Assembly: GCA_007693395.1 (NCBI GenBank)
Contig: REDS01000104.1
Coordinates: 1 to 56,723, forward strand
DNA from: Balneolaceae bacterium
GTDB lineage: Bacteria; Bacteroidota; Rhodothermia; Balneolales; Balneolaceae
Direction of reading: 5' to 3'
Length of the DNA stretch: 56,723 nt
A model generated the notes under the pieces. That model searched no databases, was not told where the DNA came from, and saw nothing but the letters and a program-made list of their open reading frames with translations. The translations under genes were made by a program, and so were the position numbers. Below, one piece after another: positions 17,885 through 44,569 of this stretch (positions within the stretch are counted from its first letter, which is position 1; every line of letters starts with the position of its first letter).

Positions 17885-20260
17885 ATGAGCATTCTCAAAA
17901 AACTCGGTTTAGCACAGAAGAAAAGTGAAGTACCGCCGCCAATTGGCGTAAATAAAGTGAAAGAGCAAAAGGAGGCCACTGAGAGAAGAAACAAGTATTT
18001 CAGAATTGTTACCCTGCTTGTTTTTTTAGCTGTTGTGCTTGTTTCTTTACCGCAAACCACTTTTCAGCCTGTTGCCAGTTACTCAATAAACGAACCCTGG
18101 CGGGCTGATGATCTTACCGCACCGTTTACATTCGCTATTAAAAAAACAGATAGTGAACTTCAGCAGGAGCGCGAGGAAATCAGGCAGCAAACCGCCCCAA
18201 TTTTTCACGTAGATAACAATGCCTTAGTAGTTATCGAATCCAGAGTAGATTCTATTTACCGGGCCTTGCAGCCTGTTATGGACAGTTATGTTCATTGGCG
18301 CAGATCACTTTCTGCCAATGATGAATCAGCCGCAGAGAGCGACAGCCTTCAATTTATACAGGATCGCGACAATGCGAATGTGCGCCTAAACAGTGATGCG
18401 TGGAATGCACTGCTTGAAAACTATGCTTCGGTTGTAATTAACAACCAGCCCGAACGGCGTGCAGTGGTTTTTCAGATCCGGTCTCAAATCTTTGACCTGA
18501 TTGACCTGCTGATTGCAGACGGAATTATCGATCGAAGTAAAGATGAAATCGATAACAACGAAATCATCATCCGAAATTTACGCCAGCTTACGGAGAGGTC
18601 TGTTTCTCTTGCTAATGTGCGCGACCCCAGAGAGGCATCAGATTTTGCCCAGCTTCAACTTAGCAGGGCTTATTTACCCGAAGTTTCAAGGGCAGCGCAT
18701 CAGCTTTTTAATCAGGTAATTCAGCCTAATCTCTTCTACTCAGAGGCAGATACAGATGCTTACCTGGAGGAACAGCTTGCAAATATTTCCACTACCAGGG
18801 GTGCTGTAGACCAGGGGCAGATTATCGTTCGGCGTGGCGACATCGTAACACCGGAAATCGACAACATTTTGCGAAGCCTTGCTGAAGCGCGTGCCCTTAC
18901 TGCAACTGAACTTGAGCGCTGGCTGCGATACTTTGGCGAAGCAATAGTGGTAATCATAGCCACATTGATGTTTTTCATCTACATCTTCCTCTACAGAAAG
19001 AAAATCTATGAGCTGCCCTCCATGTTTTTGCTGGTATTTTTAGTGATGGGTATCGTTGCTCTTGCAAGTGCTCTGATCTATCCTTTCGATAATGTAAACA
19101 GTTATATAGTACCCATTGCGGTAGCCCCAATTATTCTCACCATTATATTTGATTCGCGGGTTGGCCTCATGGCTACGGTTACGCTTGCAATCATAACCGG
19201 AGTAGTACACGACTACAATTTTGAATACCTCGTAGCAACGATAGCCGCATGCAGCCTCGGTGTTTTTTCTGTAAGGGATATTAAAAAGAGGTCGCAGTTT
19301 TTCTTTATCACACCGGGAATTGTATTCATATCGTACATGCTTGTAATATCAGGTTTTGGGCTGGCACGCTTTACAGGCTGGGAGAAGTTTTTCAGTGATC
19401 TCTTTTTTGTTGGTGTAAATTCGGTTTTTATTCTTTTCACCTACCCACTGATTCTGCTATTTGAGAAACTCTTTAAAATCACGACTGATTTTACTCTGCT
19501 GGAGCTTGCTGATACCAATTTGCCCCTTATGAAAGAATTGATGAGCAAAGCACCGGGCACTTTTCACCATAGTTTGCAGGTAGCAAATCTTGCTGAATCA
19601 GCAGCTTCTGATATTGGTGCAAATGCTCTTTTATGCCGTGTTGGTGCAATGTATCACGACGTAGGGAAGATGGTTAAGCCATCTTACTTTATTGAGAATC
19701 AGAACAAGTCGAACGATCATGATAAGCTTAAACCCCGAATGAGTGCTCTTGTTATCAAGGCACATGTAAGTGAAGGGGTAAAAATTGCAAAAGAAAATAA
19801 CCTGCCAGATCTTATCATAGACCTGATTAAAACTCATCATGGAACATCTCTCATCAGATATTTCCACCAAAAAGCGAGTGAAGATTCTGAAACCATACAG
19901 GAAGAAGATTTCCGATACGACGGACCCACTCCTTTCACTAAAGAACAGGGTATTTTAATGCTTGCCGATGGCGTGGAAGCCTCCTGCCGTTCGATGAAAG
20001 ATACTACGTACAGCAAACTCGAAAATCAGATAGACCGAATTATTGATAGCAGTCTAAATGATGATCAGCTTAAAGATTGTCCGTTAACTTTCCGCCAGAT
20101 TCAGATAATAAAAGAGTCTTTTCTGAGGATTCTAAAAGGAGTTTATCATAGCAGAATTGAATATCCCGACGAGAAAAAGCCGGCAAAAAAAGAGCAGCTT
20201 CAGGAAAATAAGAATGAGGACATAGCAACTGATTCTGAAGAGAAAAAAGTGAATGAGTAG
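17885..20260 (+). CDS. PgpH-type 7TM HD-domain phosphodiesterase
   Basis: A 791-residue membrane protein of the 7TMR-HD family, whose characterised member PgpH cleaves the second messenger c-di-AMP. The order is one N-terminal transmembrane helix (about 40-60), an extracytoplasmic 7TMR-HDED domain with coiled-coil character (about 70-340), seven transmembrane helices (about 350-545), and a cytoplasmic HD domain with FHHSLQVANLAE and YHDVGKM near 560-600. The catalytic HD pair is intact. The C-terminus is Lys/Glu-rich. Its TAG stop touches the xerD ATG with no gap. Substrate assignment is by family; no diadenylate cyclase lies in this window. Confidence 0.92.
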   Translation: MSILKKLGLAQKKSEVPPPIGVNKVKEQKEATERRNKYFRIVTLLVFLAVVLVSLPQTTFQPVASYSINEPWRADDLTAPFTFAIKKTDSELQQEREEIRQQTAPIFHVDNNALVVIESRVDSIYRALQPVMDSYVHWRRSLSANDESAAESDSLQFIQDRDNANVRLNSDAWNALLENYASVVINNQPERRAVVFQIRSQIFDLIDLLIADGIIDRSKDEIDNNEIIIRNLRQLTERSVSLANVRDPREASDFAQLQLSRAYLPEVSRAAHQLFNQVIQPNLFYSEADTDAYLEEQLANISTTRGAVDQGQIIVRRGDIVTPEIDNILRSLAEARALTATELERWLRYFGEAIVVIIATLMFFIYIFLYRKKIYELPSMFLLVFLVMGIVALASALIYPFDNVNSYIVPIAVAPIILTIIFDSRVGLMATVTLAIITGVVHDYNFEYLVATIAACSLGVFSVRDIKKRSQFFFITPGIVFISYMLVISGFGLARFTGWEKFFSDLFFVGVNSVFILFTYPLILLFEKLFKITTDFTLLELADTNLPLMKELMSKAPGTFHHSLQVANLAESAASDIGANALLCRVGAMYHDVGKMVKPSYFIENQNKSNDHDKLKPRMSALVIKAHVSEGVKIAKENNLPDLIIDLIKTHHGTSLIRYFHQKASEDSETIQEEDFRYDGPTPFTKEQGILMLADGVEASCRSMKDTTYSKLENQIDRIIDSSLNDDQLKDCPLTFRQIQIIKESFLRILKGVYHSRIEYPDEKKPAKKEQLQENKNEDIATDSEEKKVNE

Positions 20261-21172
20261 ATGGCTTTTTTTGAAGCAGAATTGAAACGTTATCTGCAGT
20301 TTGTAAAGCTTGAAAAAGGATTATCTGAAAATTCTGTTCTCTCCTACCGCAATGATCTTGAACGCTATCTGAGATTTGCAGCCCGCGATCTCGGTTTGAA
20401 TAATCTTGGCGGAATTACACTTGCACATATCGAAAACTATCTGGTTGAGCTTACCGAGATGAACCTTGCCGTTAGCACCATAGCAAGGAATATTTCAAGT
20501 ATACGCAGTTTCCATGAATTTGCCGTGGTTGAAGGTATTGCCGCTGCAAATCCCGCAGAATTAGTAGAATTACCGAGAAAGGCCGCGAAGCTGCCTGAGG
20601 TACTTAATACAAACGAAGTTGAACAGATTATTGACGCTGCAAACCGTACTGAAAATTCAGGAATACGGGATGCCGCAATTCTTGAAACTCTCTACGCAAG
20701 CGGTATGCGAGTTAGCGAGTTAACCGCCCTTGAGCTGGACAGGCTATTTTTTGAGATTGGCTTTATCAGAGTGATTGGCAAGGGAAATAAAGAAAGACTG
20801 GTGCCTGTTGGTGGCATGGCAGAACAGGCAATAGAACATTACATGGAAACGGCAAGGCCTGTTTTTTTAAGTAGTACGAACCCTCAAAAAAGTAAGAACA
20901 GGTTATTTCTCAATCAAAGAGGCGGCCCATTAACTCGTATGAGTGTGTGGAATATTGTAAACAAATATGCCAAAAAAGCGGGTATAAAGAAGAATGTTTA
21001 TCCTCATATTTTTCGCCACTCTTTTGCCACGCACCTGCTGGAAGGAGGAGCTGATTTGCGCGCTGTGCAAGAAATGCTTGGGCATACTTCAATCACTACT
21101 ACTGAAATCTACACCCATGTAGAGCGTTCACTGCTTCACCAGGTTCATAAGCAGTTTCATCCAAGGGCGTAG
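20261..21172 (+). CDS. xerD: Site-specific tyrosine recombinase XerC/XerD
   Basis: This recombinase resolves chromosome dimers at dif. The 303-residue protein has the N-terminal SAM-like DNA-binding domain (about 5-90) and a catalytic domain with Arg150, Lys174, His249, Arg252, His275 and the nucleophile Tyr284, all present. No terminase or excisionase neighbours exist, and the gene abuts the PgpH-type gene, so it is the chromosomal Xer protein and not a mobile-element integrase. XerC and XerD cannot be separated by sequence alone; XerD is the likelier label. Confidence 0.9.
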   Translation: MAFFEAELKRYLQFVKLEKGLSENSVLSYRNDLERYLRFAARDLGLNNLGGITLAHIENYLVELTEMNLAVSTIARNISSIRSFHEFAVVEGIAAANPAELVELPRKAAKLPEVLNTNEVEQIIDAANRTENSGIRDAAILETLYASGMRVSELTALELDRLFFEIGFIRVIGKGNKERLVPVGGMAEQAIEHYMETARPVFLSSTNPQKSKNRLFLNQRGGPLTRMSVWNIVNKYAKKAGIKKNVYPHIFRHSFATHLLEGGADLRAVQEMLGHTSITTTEIYTHVERSLLHQVHKQFHPRA

Positions 21173-22380: not shown

Positions 22381-22965
22381 ATGAAATATCAAACTGATAC
22401 AAAAACAACAATCGAAATCTACGATCCGGCTATGTGCTGCAGCACCGGCGTTTGCGGAACAGACATTGACGATACACTGGCAGACTTTGCCAATGATGTT
22501 AAGTGGATAAAATCTCAGGGAGTTGAAGTAAAGCGATACAACTTAGCTCAGGAGCCAGAAGCGTTTAAAATGTGCGTGCCTGTACTAACTTATCTTCAAA
22601 AAGAAGGATCTGAAGTTTTACCTATCATCATTGTTAACGGAGAGATGGTTTCTCAGGGTGGCTATCCTGATCGCAAAAAACTATCTGAATGGGCTGCATT
22701 ATTTCCCGAAAAAAAGAATGGTGTTATAAATCAGACAGAACTACTTAGCGATCTGGAAAAAGCTGTATCTGAAGGAGATGAAAACGGTATGAAAACCTTG
22801 TTTTTAAAAGGTAAAAAGAACGATATATCCATCGAAGCACTTGTGGGTGCTATGCAAAGCGGGATAGACAATCGCCAGCAAGTTACCCAACGTACACTTC
22901 AAACTGCAAATGAACTGCTTGGTGTTCAACCGGGTAGCTGTGCACCGGGCAGTGGGTGTTGCTGA
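22381..22965 (+). CDS. arsD: Arsenic metallochaperone ArsD, C-terminally extended
   Basis: ArsD carries arsenite to the ArsA ATPase and has a thioredoxin-like fold. IEIYDPAMCCSTGVCG supplies Cys19, Cys20 and Cys25, corresponding to the essential Cys12, 13 and 18 of Escherichia coli ArsD. At 194 residues it is far longer than the usual 120. The extra C-terminal helical part has KKNDISIEALVGAMQSGI-type sequence and ends in CAPGSGCC (Cys187, 193, 194), resembling the distal cysteine pairs of the plasmid protein moved onto a longer arm. It precedes arsA by 41 bases. Confidence 0.92.
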   Translation: MKYQTDTKTTIEIYDPAMCCSTGVCGTDIDDTLADFANDVKWIKSQGVEVKRYNLAQEPEAFKMCVPVLTYLQKEGSEVLPIIIVNGEMVSQGGYPDRKKLSEWAALFPEKKNGVINQTELLSDLEKAVSEGDENGMKTLFLKGKKNDISIEALVGAMQSGIDNRQQVTQRTLQTANELLGVQPGSCAPGSGCC

Positions 22966-23006
22966 TCATCAGAGAGAAATAAAATAATCATCAATCAAAG
23001 AGAAAA

Positions 23007-24797
23007 ATGTTAAGAGAAATCACACCCTATATCTTCTTCACAGGCAAAGGCGGGGTTGGTAAAACCTCTCTTGCCAGCGCAACAGCTGTAAAGCTTTCGG
23101 ACGAAGGAAAAAAAGTTTTACTGATCAGTACTGATCCCGCTTCAAACCTGAAAGAAGTACTCGAAACCAATATCACAGAAAAAATTACACCGGTAAACGG
23201 GCTTCCAAATCTGCATGCAGTTAATATCGATCCGGAGATGTCGGCCGAGGAGTATCGTAACCGGGTGATCTCTCCCCTGCAGGATATTCTGCCGGAGCAT
23301 GAACTGAAAAAAATTCGCGAAGAGCTTTCCGGTGCTTGCACAACAGAAATTGCCGCTTTTGATGAATTTGCGCGTTACGTTGCCGGCGATGGCGAAGAGC
23401 AGCCTTATGATGTTATCATCTTTGACACCGCGCCAACCGGCCACACTCTCCGCTTGTTGGAACTCCCCGCAGCATGGAGTGAATTTATTGAATCCAATCC
23501 GGATGGAGCTTCTTGTATCGGTCCCTCATCTGCACTGAAAACGAGTCAGGCACGCTATCAAAAAGTAGTAGAACGCCTGCGGGATAAAGACGCAACTACC
23601 GTTTACCTTGTAACCCGACCTGACCGGCCTGCACTCAATGAAGCCGAACGATCCAGTAAGGAACTGATGGAGCTGGGTTTAAACAACCAACTGCTGCTTA
23701 TCAACGGATATTTTGAACCGATTGATGAAACGGATCAACTCGCCGGAAAGATGAAAGAGATTGCTGATGCAATGTTGGAAGATATGCCTGAACATCTGAA
23801 GGCTATGAATCAGCATCTGTTTCCACTGAGGCCATACAACCTTCTTGGCATTGCACGGCTTCGAAAAGTTTTTGAACCGCTCGATAAGGATGAGATTATT
23901 GCAGGCAGTAAAAACCTCATTTCTGATCATCATGAAAGTAATCTGCCAGATTTAAATCAGCTTGTTGCTGATCTCATTGCTGAAAAAGATCATGGTTTGG
24001 TGATGACAATGGGCAAAGGCGGTGTTGGTAAAACAGCTATCGCTGCTGCAATTGCTCTCAAGCTGGCTCGTGAAGGGTATCCTGTTCACCTCACCACAAC
24101 CGATCCTGCAGCACATCTGCTTGATCACATTGGTGAGATGGAAATCCCGGTAAACCTGACGGTTGACCGAATTGATCCGCGTGCCGAAAAAGCCGCTTAC
24201 ATCGAGAAAGTGCTCAAAAATAAGGGGAGTAAACTGAACGAGGAAGAGTTGAAGCTGCTCCGTGAAGATCTGGAATCTCCATGTACAGAAGAGGTGGCCG
24301 TTTTCCAGGCGTTTTCGAAAGCCATACAGCAGGCAAAACGGAAGTTTGTAGTAGTTGACACAGCTCCAACCGGGCATACACTTCTCTTGCTGGATACTAC
24401 CGGAAGTTACCACCGCGAAGTTCTTCGAAATACATCCATGGATGCCGGTAAATTAAAAACGCCCTACATGTATCTTCAGGATGGCGATTTTGCAAAATTG
24501 TTGATTGTAGCCCTGCCGGAAACCACTCCTATTACAGAAGCGGCAAAATTGCAGGATGATCTGAGGCGCTCAGGAATTGAACCGTACGGATGGATTGCCA
24601 ACCAGAGCTTATCGGCAACATCAGTTTCAGATCCGTTGCTAAAACAGCGTGCAGCTGAAGAAATTCCTCAGTTAAAACTGATGGAAAATGAACATACCAA
24701 GAAACTTTACGCCATACCCTGGATAGCTGAAAACCGTATTTTGGAAACACTTGTTTACTCAGATAAAAAAGAGATGGAGAACATTTTATGGGCCTGA
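23007..24797 (+). CDS. arsA: Arsenite-transporting ATPase ArsA
   Basis: This ATPase is the soluble motor of the ArsAB arsenite pump. The 596-residue protein has two homologous halves, each with a deviant P-loop (TGKGGVGKTS at 12-21 and MGKGGVGKTA at 335-344) and a DTAPTGHTL signal loop (about 140 and 452). The three metalloid cysteines of the family are preserved at 111, 170 and 426. Full-length double ATPases are the ArsD-dependent type, consistent with arsD just upstream. Its end overlaps the Usp start by 10 bases. Confidence 0.96.
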   Translation: MLREITPYIFFTGKGGVGKTSLASATAVKLSDEGKKVLLISTDPASNLKEVLETNITEKITPVNGLPNLHAVNIDPEMSAEEYRNRVISPLQDILPEHELKKIREELSGACTTEIAAFDEFARYVAGDGEEQPYDVIIFDTAPTGHTLRLLELPAAWSEFIESNPDGASCIGPSSALKTSQARYQKVVERLRDKDATTVYLVTRPDRPALNEAERSSKELMELGLNNQLLLINGYFEPIDETDQLAGKMKEIADAMLEDMPEHLKAMNQHLFPLRPYNLLGIARLRKVFEPLDKDEIIAGSKNLISDHHESNLPDLNQLVADLIAEKDHGLVMTMGKGGVGKTAIAAAIALKLAREGYPVHLTTTDPAAHLLDHIGEMEIPVNLTVDRIDPRAEKAAYIEKVLKNKGSKLNEEELKLLREDLESPCTEEVAVFQAFSKAIQQAKRKFVVVDTAPTGHTLLLLDTTGSYHREVLRNTSMDAGKLKTPYMYLQDGDFAKLLIVALPETTPITEAAKLQDDLRRSGIEPYGWIANQSLSATSVSDPLLKQRAAEEIPQLKLMENEHTKKLYAIPWIAENRILETLVYSDKKEMENILWA

Positions 24798-41136: not shown

Positions 41137-41604
41137 ATGATACACGAATTTACAGAAGAGAATATCCTTTCTATAGGAAAGGTACTTGGCTGTTCACCCA
41201 AGAAAGTTGGCACAGAAATGTATCGTCTCGAGATGCATAATGAAGACGATGGCCGAAAGCTTGCCCTTGAAATTCAGCTTGGTTTAGTGATAGATGAAAA
41301 ACCAATGACAATGGTATCGGTCTATTCCGGCAGTACATTTATACAACTGCACAACTGCACCGCATTTGTTGCCAGTGAAATACTTCGGCAGGTAACTTTC
41401 TTTGGCAAACAGGGTAACATTACCACAGGATTAATTGTAGAGCAGGGAGCCGGATGCAGTATCTATGCCAACGTTCACGAGTCCGTACTTAGCGGAGATT
41501 TTACACAGCTGCCAGATGATGTAATGATGTGCGGAGTTGCTTTATCTCTCACAGAGTCACTCGACACGGATGATTTCTCATTCGATGATGGCAACATTTC
41601 CTGA
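41137..41604 (+). CDS. Unknown soluble protein upstream of ybeY
   Basis: I do not recognise this 155-residue protein. It has mixed alpha/beta sequence without membrane segments or signal peptide, with a well-ordered middle part (LALEIQLGLVIDEKPMTMVSVY) and an acidic C-terminus. Its last 17-20 bases overlap the start of ybeY, so it is translated together with ybeY and presumably in the same functional unit. No motif suggests an activity. Confidence 0.65.
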   Translation: MIHEFTEENILSIGKVLGCSPKKVGTEMYRLEMHNEDDGRKLALEIQLGLVIDEKPMTMVSVYSGSTFIQLHNCTAFVASEILRQVTFFGKQGNITTGLIVEQGAGCSIYANVHESVLSGDFTQLPDDVMMCGVALSLTESLDTDDFSFDDGNIS

Positions 41605-42058
41605 CATACCCTTTCCCCCCGATACGCCAAAACTCACAATCTCGAACCCTTCGGGCGATTCAATACCGCTTGCTAAAACCGAGCTCGAAGCTCTGCTCAC
41701 TATCTTCGAGGAACAGGAAAATGTAAGATTTAGTGAAGTTGAGCTTGTTTACGTAGATGAAGTTCACATCAAAGAGATAAACACAGAGTATCTGGATCGC
41801 GATTATGTTACTGATATAATATCATTTCGCTACGATGAGGATACCGGCAATCAATCTATTGAAGGCACACTTTTTTGTTGTGCCCCGCGCATTAAAGAAC
41901 AGAGCAAAGAGGCCGGCACAACTGTAAAGAGTGAATTTTACCGGATTTTTGTCCACGGCTTACTCCATCTTTCCGGTTATGATGACCAGTCCAAAACGGA
42001 TAAAGATGCTATGACTCAACGCGAAAACCACTATTTGAATCAGGCAGGGATAGAATAG
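41588..42058 (+). CDS. ybeY: Endoribonuclease YbeY
   Basis: A zinc-dependent RNase that matures 16S rRNA ends and supports ribosome quality control. The metal site HGLLHLSGYDD has the first two histidines; the third ligand position is Asp, as in other Bacteroidota (recall), where Escherichia coli has His. LDRDYVTDIISFRYDE is the conserved strand before it. The frame opens at a TTG (41537), but ATG codons at 41585 and 41588 give the MATFPDIP start. It overlaps the upstream gene and shares its last base with the GTG of the next one. Confidence 0.9.
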   Translation: MATFPDIPFPPDTPKLTISNPSGDSIPLAKTELEALLTIFEEQENVRFSEVELVYVDEVHIKEINTEYLDRDYVTDIISFRYDEDTGNQSIEGTLFCCAPRIKEQSKEAGTTVKSEFYRIFVHGLLHLSGYDDQSKTDKDAMTQRENHYLNQAGIE

Positions 42059-43422
42059 TGAACCACTCTGTATACACCCTGTTGATTGTTGAATCTCCCG
42101 TTCTGGCCTCAGCCATTAGAGAGGTAGCGCCACAATCTATCTACCCGATTGCAACGGGCGGCTACTGTTGGTTCCCGGCATACAATGCCACAAAAAACAA
42201 TTTAACACCAAAAGCCAACCCGGATAAAATTGAAGTTCGCAGAGAACTTAAAGAGCAGGCACAATGGGCCAATAATATTATCATTGCTACAGATAGTGAT
42301 CCCTCGGGAGATTTTATAGCATGGTCGGTAGCGAAATTTCTGAAGATTCCTGTAATTCGCCGCGCACAATTACAAAACCTGAGTAAAGCCGGAATTATTC
42401 AGATGCTGGAGGAGGCTCGCGAAACAGATTTAACGTACCTCGAATCTACTCTGAAAAATCTGTTTTTGATTCAATCAAACTGGCAGAAAGAGAAAAGCCT
42501 GCCTGATATTGATCTTTCAGGCCTTGCAGTACTATTTGGCACATCCGGATATTTCACTCATTTTCTTGATGAGAATAACACTCTTTTCAGTAGTTCTGCT
42601 CCGGTTTATTGTGAAACGGATGAATGGATTCCCATAAGGCCATCCCTGGAACAGCAGTACAAAATTGTTGAACCGCTCTCAACCTTCAATCTGATTGAAC
42701 AAACTGTAAGCCATTCCATAACTAAAGGATACAATGATGCACAGGTTCTTCTTCAACGGCTTTTTCAGACGGTTTTGCCAGGCACAAAACAGTCTTTAAT
42801 CAGCTATCCAAGAAGCTCTGCCAATGCATTTTATGGCCAGACATGGGTAAATTTCAGAACCCAGTTTTTACAGGCGTCTCTTGATGGTGAATTGAAACCC
42901 AACTTTTTACAGGAAACAGCCCCCCTTGAAGAACCTCACGAAAGTATCTACCCGTTTGATTTAACCCTGAAACCTGAGGATGCAGCCGGTGAGCTGATCT
43001 CATCACTTGGCGATCTCTATACATTGATCTATTCCCACACCGTAAATGCCATCACAATTCCCGATTCAGCGGAAAAAACATTCGAAAATGATCTCAAACC
43101 GGAAGTTTACTTTTATCCTGTTACAAAAGGTTATAAAAATACCGGAGAACATACATTAAGGCCATGTTACACTGTGGCTGATATGGGTAAAAATCTCTAT
43201 GAATTGGGTGTTTGCAGGCCTTCCGGTTTTGGTGAAAAACTTGATTCCTGGATAGTGAAAAAATGGGTTTCAATAGAGGGAACAATCGTAAACCCGCTCC
43301 AGCCGGTTAAAACACTTGGCAACAGGGCAGCGGGCCTAAAACAGAAGCTTATAGATTTGAAAAGTCTGGAGAACAGAATCTCTCTGTTGCCTGAAACTGT
43401 ACATGCAGTTATAACGTCTTAG
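42058..43422 (+). CDS. Diverged topoisomerase IA-like protein
   Basis: A 454-residue protein that aligns by eye with the topoisomerase IA core. The N-terminal TOPRIM has IVESP (Glu12), then ATDSDPSGDFIAW with Asp79, Asp81, Gly84 and Asp85, where true enzymes have DxDREGE. SLISYPRSSA at 247-256 matches the active-site strand with Tyr250 and Arg252, but the following Thr-Asp is lost. PHESIYP (293-299) matches AHEAIRP, and LYELGVCRPSGFG (380-392) matches LxELGIGRPSTYA. Zinc fingers are absent. The likely outcome is altered or no strand cleavage. It starts at GTG, overlapping ybeY by one base. Confidence 0.75.
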   Translation: MNHSVYTLLIVESPVLASAIREVAPQSIYPIATGGYCWFPAYNATKNNLTPKANPDKIEVRRELKEQAQWANNIIIATDSDPSGDFIAWSVAKFLKIPVIRRAQLQNLSKAGIIQMLEEARETDLTYLESTLKNLFLIQSNWQKEKSLPDIDLSGLAVLFGTSGYFTHFLDENNTLFSSSAPVYCETDEWIPIRPSLEQQYKIVEPLSTFNLIEQTVSHSITKGYNDAQVLLQRLFQTVLPGTKQSLISYPRSSANAFYGQTWVNFRTQFLQASLDGELKPNFLQETAPLEEPHESIYPFDLTLKPEDAAGELISSLGDLYTLIYSHTVNAITIPDSAEKTFENDLKPEVYFYPVTKGYKNTGEHTLRPCYTVADMGKNLYELGVCRPSGFGEKLDSWIVKKWVSIEGTIVNPLQPVKTLGNRAAGLKQKLIDLKSLENRISLLPETVHAVITS

Positions 43423-43450: not shown

Positions 43451-44569
43451 ATGAGTGAGCTGCAGAAAAAGAGTGAACATTCCGGCAACGAAGAGAACCA
43501 TTTTGCTAAGCTGGGCACCATTCTTTCATCTTATCTTGAATTTGATGAGGATTCAAAAGAGAAAAGTACAGTTTTGAAGCCTGCACAAAAGCCGAAATCG
43601 CCGGCAATTTTGCGCTACCTTAAACCTGTTCCATGGTTTTTAATTGGCCTTTTTCTATTCTCATTCTTTTGGGATTTTCCCGGCTACACAGCGACCCTCT
43701 TTGGGTATCCGCTGCTTTTTGAAGGATTGTTACGGATAATCTCTGTAAGCGGTATGATTGGATTTCTCACCAACTGGATTGCTATCACGATGTTGTTCAG
43801 GCCTTTAAATAAGCGTCCGCTGCTCGGCCAGGGCCTTGTACCGGCTCATAAAGAGAGAATTGCCTATCGCCTTGCAACTGCAGTATCTGATGACCTGATC
43901 AATCCGGAGCTAATCAAACAAAAAATTGGCGAATCGAAAGCAATCAGCCGGTACCGTGAACTCGCATTGCGCCATGTGGAGCGCATTACTGCCAAAAAAG
44001 AGTTCAGGGAAGACCTGAAAATTTGGATTATTGATTACGTAAAATCCATGACTGAGAACCCAGAGTTTAAAAAGAGTGTAAGTTCTCATCTGCTTCATGA
44101 ACTGGATGATGCCCTTAAGGATAAAATCCTTGAACGAGCTGCCCTCAAAACATACACCTACTTCAGAGGGCAATCACTGCAGGAGTTTATTGAGGAACTG
44201 CTCGGAAAAGTGCCGCTCTCAGCCGAAAAAAATATAGGTTTTGTTGAAGATTACCTGGATGATCTTCCCAAAACTATTCAGGCAAATAGTAAGCAAATAG
44301 ATGAATTGATCACCACAGCGGTTTTCAAGCTTATTAATCAGCTGAATGTTCAGCATCTTGTGGAAGAAAACCTGCGGAAGTATGATGAGCAGAAACTGGA
44401 AAACATGATTCGAAATGCAACAAACGAGCAGTTAAAAACCATACAGTATCTTGGAGCAGTGCTTGGAACTATAGGAGGTTTTGTAATCTGGGAACCGCTG
44501 CTAAGCCTCTCGGTTCTATCACTCATTTTCGGTGCTGTGTATCTTCTCGACCATTGGTTGTATCAATAA
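43451..44569 (+). CDS. DUF445 family membrane protein
   Basis: A 372-residue protein with N-terminal helices at about 62-82 and 90-115 and a C-terminal hairpin at about 335-367. The DUF445 signature GMIGFLTNWIAITMLFRPLNKRPLLGQGLVPAHKERIA is at about 101-138. The middle part is helical and probably cytosolic. DUF445 proteins are widespread and of unknown function (YheB/YjiN relatives). It ends at a bidirectional terminator. Confidence 0.82.
   Translation: MSELQKKSEHSGNEENHFAKLGTILSSYLEFDEDSKEKSTVLKPAQKPKSPAILRYLKPVPWFLIGLFLFSFFWDFPGYTATLFGYPLLFEGLLRIISVSGMIGFLTNWIAITMLFRPLNKRPLLGQGLVPAHKERIAYRLATAVSDDLINPELIKQKIGESKAISRYRELALRHVERITAKKEFREDLKIWIIDYVKSMTENPEFKKSVSSHLLHELDDALKDKILERAALKTYTYFRGQSLQEFIEELLGKVPLSAEKNIGFVEDYLDDLPKTIQANSKQIDELITTAVFKLINQLNVQHLVEENLRKYDEQKLENMIRNATNEQLKTIQYLGAVLGTIGGFVIWEPLLSLSVLSLIFGAVYLLDHWLYQ

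Follow-up and report, generated by a model that had tools for sequence, protein, structure and literature searches.

A compact type IA topoisomerase-like protein encoded next to ybeY in Balneolales

Introduction

The literature divides type IA topoisomerases into three subfamilies, namely Topo I, Topo III and reverse gyrase (PMC8185306). In the cleavage chemistry established for the TopA enzymes of Mtb and E. coli, a tyrosine acts as the nucleophile, an arginine contacts the phosphate, a glutamate serves as general acid together with an Asp-His relay, and a DxD motif holds Mg2+ (PMC6101483); the glutamate and the DxD pair are the catalytic acids of the TOPRIM domain (PMC10969213). E. coli TopA needs Lys13 for cleavage (PMC5983628), while Mtb TopI places no lysine at the scissile phosphate (PMC6101483). 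Mutants of the E. coli acidic triad D111/D113/E115 are impaired in religation and trap cleavage complexes (PMC7823277). On the genomic level, dprA-smg-topA is a known operon (PMC5817196). A literature search of incomplete coverage returned no paper linking Rhodohalobacter or Balneolaceae with a topoisomerase.

The window analyzed here is the whole 56,723-nucleotide stretch of contig REDS01000104.1 from a Balneolaceae bacterium. It encodes a 454-aa type IA topoisomerase-like protein at positions 42058-43422, for which we use the name TL (gene and protein). TL remained under the NCBIfam family cut-offs of TopA, TopB and reverse gyrase. TopA is its nearest relative by fold (Z ~24), profile and tree, and the two have in common the TOPRIM domain and toroid of core domains I-IV, the Tyr-x-Arg, Glu, DxD and His residues, an HE(A/S)I motif and a PS loop. 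In contrast to TopA, TL lacks Lys13, His33, Glu115, LSAGRVQS, the C-terminal domain and ~130 core residues. The best NCBIfam model, topA_bact (TIGR01051, an equivalog), reached an E-value of 9.7e-15, its 54.6 bits lying below the cut-off of 456.4. With Topo III (TopB/TOP3), TL shares the fold (Z 21), a Y-P-R active site and an aliphatic residue at the Lys13 position, whereas it has Ser13 in place of Lys8, has no HH motif, is divided from Topo III by a starred branch of the tree and scores 10.5 on the topB model (cut-off 515.75). Similarity to the topoisomerase half of reverse gyrase covers the fold and a weak sequence match near DxD; in contrast, TL starts directly at TOPRIM without a helicase half (rgy model, 21.6 bits vs 471.7). 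Finally, RNase M5, which acts on RNA, shares the TOPRIM fold (Z 12.8 over 95 residues), but the match is limited to this domain, RNase M5 having neither the type IA toroid nor the active tyrosine.

Gene locus and sequence relationship

The TL gene is positioned within a group of closely spaced genes on the same strand:

41137..41604, + strand: 155-aa gene of no known family, its end overlapping the ybeY start by 17 nt
41588..42058, + strand: ybeY, rRNA maturation endoribonuclease (Pfam YbeY, 1.1e-28; TIGR00043, 5.8e-32)
42058..43422, + strand: TL, compact type IA topoisomerase-like gene, 454 aa (Pfam/NCBIfam matches, AF2 fold, conservation in 42/128 Balneolales genomes)
43451..44569, + strand: DUF445 membrane protein, next gene downstream of TL and conserved neighbour (Pfam DUF445, 2.2e-32)

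Inspection of the window sequence showed the TL reading frame to be real, with a GTG start and 454 codons for amino acids. One nucleotide is common to this GTG and the ybeY stop (TAG, 42056-42058), in agreement with the preliminary description, which had placed TL and ybeY in one overlapping unit; the unit is conserved in relatives. The product of the 155-aa gene had no match in Pfam or NCBIfam, and the gene precedes ybeY at most Balneolales loci examined, irrespective of the presence of TL. An Rfam search of the window detected no RNA element, promoter matches were no commoner than in shuffled sequence, and PADLOC gave no defence-system match for TL.

The proposed relationship to topoisomerase IA is above chance. 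Pfam Toprim matches TL residues 8-102 with an E-value of 6.7e-8, Topoisom_bac follows below threshold (2e-4), and a profile-profile comparison with TopA yielded 1.5e-22 across 400 columns. When family members were scanned singly, 23 of 26 matched Toprim and 22 of 26 Topoisom_bac at E <= 0.01. The absence of zinc fingers, also part of the preliminary description, was confirmed: a Pfam search revealed no zinc finger, zinc-ribbon, Toprim_C_rpt or other C-terminal repeat in TL, and the protein ends at the core. The window TL is acidic (net charge -10, pI 5.4), compared with +2 to +5 for TopA and TopB cores.

Predicted structure

An AlphaFold2 model of TL based on 27 homologues reached a mean pLDDT of 90.6 and a pTM of 0.86. 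The structures that matched it best were without exception type IA topoisomerases, aligned along the entire protein: residues 4-454 align to M. smegmatis TopI with Z 24.6 (402 aligned residues, 4.7 A), and E. coli TopA and Topo III follow with Z 24.4 and 21.0, respectively (TopA range, 22-24.6). A divergent member of 508 aa from group f4, modelled separately, showed the same fold and the same set of matches (Z 22.6). According to these models, the TL fold is the entire four-domain type IA toroid with TOPRIM as domain I. Thus, the profile search found a topoisomerase IA match and the overlay on TopA a TOPRIM fold, the two points on which the preliminary description had made its reading depend.

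The shortened core that the preliminary description had claimed was confirmed, TL having ~130 residues fewer than the E. coli TopA core. In E. coli TopA numbering, the absent parts comprise 35-78, 174-188, pieces of 220-266, 434-467, parts of 533-574 and almost all residues past 581, so that the hinge, domain IV and the C-terminal parts are trimmed. No other complete type IA toroid compared in the present analysis is as small as TL.

Active site and nucleic-acid groove

For residue-level comparison, 38 aligned TL homologues and one further protein (L143), in total 39, were examined alongside 26 TopA and three TopB rows. The positions of interest in the window are:

42091..42093, + strand: Glu12 codon, TOPRIM catalytic Glu (E. 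coli TopA E9), invariant in 39 homologues
42103..42105, + strand: Leu16 codon at the E. coli Lys13 position; nearly every homologue has an aliphatic residue here (rarely Thr)
42292..42300, + strand: Asp79-Ser-Asp81 codons, DxD metal motif, invariant
42304..42306, + strand: Ser83 codon at the E. coli Glu115 position (DDE triad, third acid); every homologue has Ser, Ala or Pro here
42805..42813, + strand: Tyr250-Pro-Arg252 codons, active-site Tyr and Arg (E. coli Y319, R321), invariant
42937..42939, + strand: His294 codon (E. coli H365), invariant

All landmarks named in the preliminary description were found, i.e., E12, D79-x-D81, S249-Y250-P251-R252, H294-E295 and CRPSG at 386-390. The equivalents of E. 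coli E9, D111, D113, Y319, R321 and H365 are kept in 39 of 39 homologues. Of the 397 ungapped columns in a deliberately divergent set of 26 TL proteins, whose mean column identity is 36%, just 18 are invariant, all six catalytic residues being among them (chance 3.5e-9). Close TL pairs show dN/dS values of ~0.07-0.16, with synonymous sites partly saturated in some pairs, and these comparisons indicate that TL is under purifying selection. With the six core residues invariant and selection of this kind, the designation as "degenerate" does not hold. TL is a genuine variant of the type IA topoisomerases, and as a conserved subfamily it is more interesting than a relic.

Other positions, several of them in contact with nucleic acid and held by residues almost universal among TopA proteins, changed throughout the family. 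The acidic stretch of the window TL reads DSDPSGD vs DxDREGE; the loss of REGE was correctly recognized earlier, and the absence of the third acidic ligand (E. coli E115) extends across the family. The reported loss of Thr-Asp after the active tyrosine applies to the window, where R-S-S follows, but not to the family: Thr is found in 35 and Asp in 8 of 38 homologues. Judged from the alignment, this loss is confined to the species of the window and its nearest relatives. Three family-wide losses had gone unnamed, Lys13, His33 and GRVQS. The Lys13 position is occupied by Ile, Leu, Met, Val or rarely Thr, the His33 position by Tyr or Phe, and the LSAGRVQS motif is lost, whereas all 26 TopA rows have these three features. 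The Arg168 position is mostly Asn. In turn, Trp38, Arg61 and Phe86 (window numbering) appear as new, family-specific invariants.

Distribution and evolution

TL was detected in 42 of 128 Balneolales genomes and is found only in this order of salt-loving bacteria. Among the genomes listed, every Rhodohalobacter-type genome (g1) of >80% completeness carries it, and named Rhodohalobacter genomes are among the relatives of the window genome. Further carriers belong to g19, g132 and g135 in f1, g146 in f3, and g4, g140 and g142 in f4. A species-genome scan revealed no TL outside Balneolales, and the phylum search beyond the order gave just TopA-level scores. The sole matches of the scan from other orders (L056-L059) were rejected as ordinary TopA adjoining dprA or smg. 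A mobile origin was likewise considered and rejected, plasmids, phage records and viral contigs containing no full-length relative; one weak, TOPRIM-only match was seen in the faecal phage MT835528.1.

Conservation of the gene order, which the preliminary description had put forward as a check, was observed, TL occupying one locus wherever contigs show it. In f1, the arrangement is [155-aa gene]-ybeY-TL-DUF445 where the contig shows the order. In f3 and f4, it is ybeY-smg(DUF494)-TL, with DUF445 next in f4; the intervening smg/DUF494 gene is seen at L026:996-1442, L160 and L197-L201 and was absent among the f1 genomes searched; in other phyla, smg lies next to topA. Relatives without TL show ybeY-DUF445 (f1; many Balneolaceae) or ybeY-smg-DUF445 (f5). 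At most f1/Balneolaceae loci, the TL start overlaps the ybeY TGA by 4 nt, which is consistent with translational coupling. In genus g135, one of the two genomes G282 and G288 carries TL, and in the other an unclassified 94-aa ORF separates ybeY from DUF445 (L146), possibly representing a loss in progress.

The window genome encodes a separate full-length TopA (TopA score 782). TopB gave no match in Balneolaceae with or without TL; a role as Topo III replacement was therefore discarded, the presence of TL being unlinked to TopB loss. Between genomes whose TopA share 85-90% identity, TL identity amounts to 40-45%, and by this comparison TL evolves several times faster than the TopA of the same genomes. 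In the phylogenetic tree, the TL proteins group as a single clade (support, 100), which lies on TopA's side of TopB; its stem is very long (3.76 changes per column) and the root position of the clade is therefore unsure. Mapped on the TopA tree of a 30-genome sample, the TL gain count is two changes, fitting two gains or one gain plus losses; the shared locus position argues for a single origin. Because smg and topA are adjacent in L057 and L059, as in the dprA-smg-topA operon, TL may have arisen from a copy of topA that moved together with smg.

Possible function

Based on sequence and model, we consider it probable, at roughly 60%, that TL constitutes a distinct compact type IA subfamily, i.e., a catalytically competent, diverged paralogue with an altered nucleic-acid groove, kept by some Balneolales in addition to TopA. 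Tyr250 would probably make and reseal a single-strand break, with Arg252 stabilizing the scissile phosphate, Glu12 serving as the general acid/base in a relay with Asp79 and His294, and Mg2+ being bound by the DxD motif. The strand-binding groove appears to have been rebuilt by the loss of Lys13, His33, Glu115 and GRVQS and the gain of Trp38, Arg61 and Phe86. Since the hinge and C-terminal parts are trimmed as well, we infer that TL likely acts together with a partner or targets a special single-stranded substrate instead of working as a general supercoil relaxase, presumably in a role accessory to TopA. Several observations speak against competence: Lys13 (PMC5983628) and Glu115 (PMC7823277), both important in E. 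coli, are absent, GRVQS and R168 are gone, an acidic protein may bind nucleic acid poorly, and the fast divergence (45% vs 85-90% for TopA) could equal relaxed constraint outside the active site.

The same losses (Lys13, Glu115, GRVQS and, in most members, R168), together with the trimmed hinge and domain IV and the acidic character, would also fit a pseudo-enzyme that kept the fold and its single-strand-binding cavity and serves as nucleic-acid clamp or scaffold without strand passage. We regard this as unlikely, although it is the best of the alternatives: even at ~25% identity, with nearly everything else drifting, the Tyr, Arg, Glu, DxD and His residues do not vary, and a pure binder would have no reason to retain Tyr250, Arg252 and His294.

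A DNA/RNA-structure role, as initially suggested, is possible, the RNA side of it being drawn from the gene neighbourhood. TL could be an RNA topoisomerase or rRNA-maturation factor working with YbeY on structured precursor rRNA, given the overlap of its start with the ybeY stop at most Balneolaceae loci; furthermore, RNA can serve as a substrate of type IA enzymes in vitro, and a part in rRNA processing has been proposed for M. smegmatis TopI (PMC10969213). All of this support for TL itself is synteny, however, and smg/DUF494 stands between ybeY and TL in f3 and f4, many Balneolaceae carry ybeY-DUF445 without TL, and smg adjoins ordinary topA elsewhere (PMC5817196), so that shared ancestry of the gene pair fits equally well. 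We therefore rate this reading somewhat lower still, and its stricter version, a dedicated bacterial RNA topoisomerase or RNA breaking-rejoining factor that is translated with YbeY and remodels or untangles precursor rRNA, as doubtful by a further step. If true, the latter would represent a cellular RNA function via a covalent intermediate, undemonstrated for a bacterial type IA enzyme (PMC10969213).

The replacement of Glu115 by Ser, Ala or Pro in all homologues, viewed together with the religation-deficient E. coli triad mutants that trap cleavage complexes (PMC7823277), could point to an enzyme cleaving without resealing, i.e., a regulated single-strand nickase. This is improbable: both D111 and D113 have intact equivalents, the third Glu is not part of the basic TOPRIM acid set (PMC10969213), and a constitutive nicking activity beside housekeeping genes would be toxic. 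Hardly credible is a functionless, decaying remnant of a topA duplication, for despite patchy presence and fast divergence nearly every genome with TL has a full-length frame free of internal stops (most seeming fragments lie at contig ends), and the dN/dS of 0.07-0.16, the invariant active site and the conserved start overlap contradict decay.

As a diverged type IA subfamily, the TL clade offers a natural experiment in which the chemistry would have been kept and Lys13, His33, Glu115 and GRVQS discarded. It can thereby test which of these four the chemistry requires, and whether some bacteria retain a type IA enzyme for tasks other than supercoil relaxation.

Other genes in the window

Distant from the TL locus, the + strand encodes a 7TM-HD receptor-type protein (17885-20257; PF07698, PF07697, HD), directly followed by a tyrosine-recombinase-like gene, called by eye, which starts at 20261. 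Genes for ArsD and a double-domain ArsA ATPase are located at 22381-24794 (+ strand), and a universal stress protein gene comes after them.
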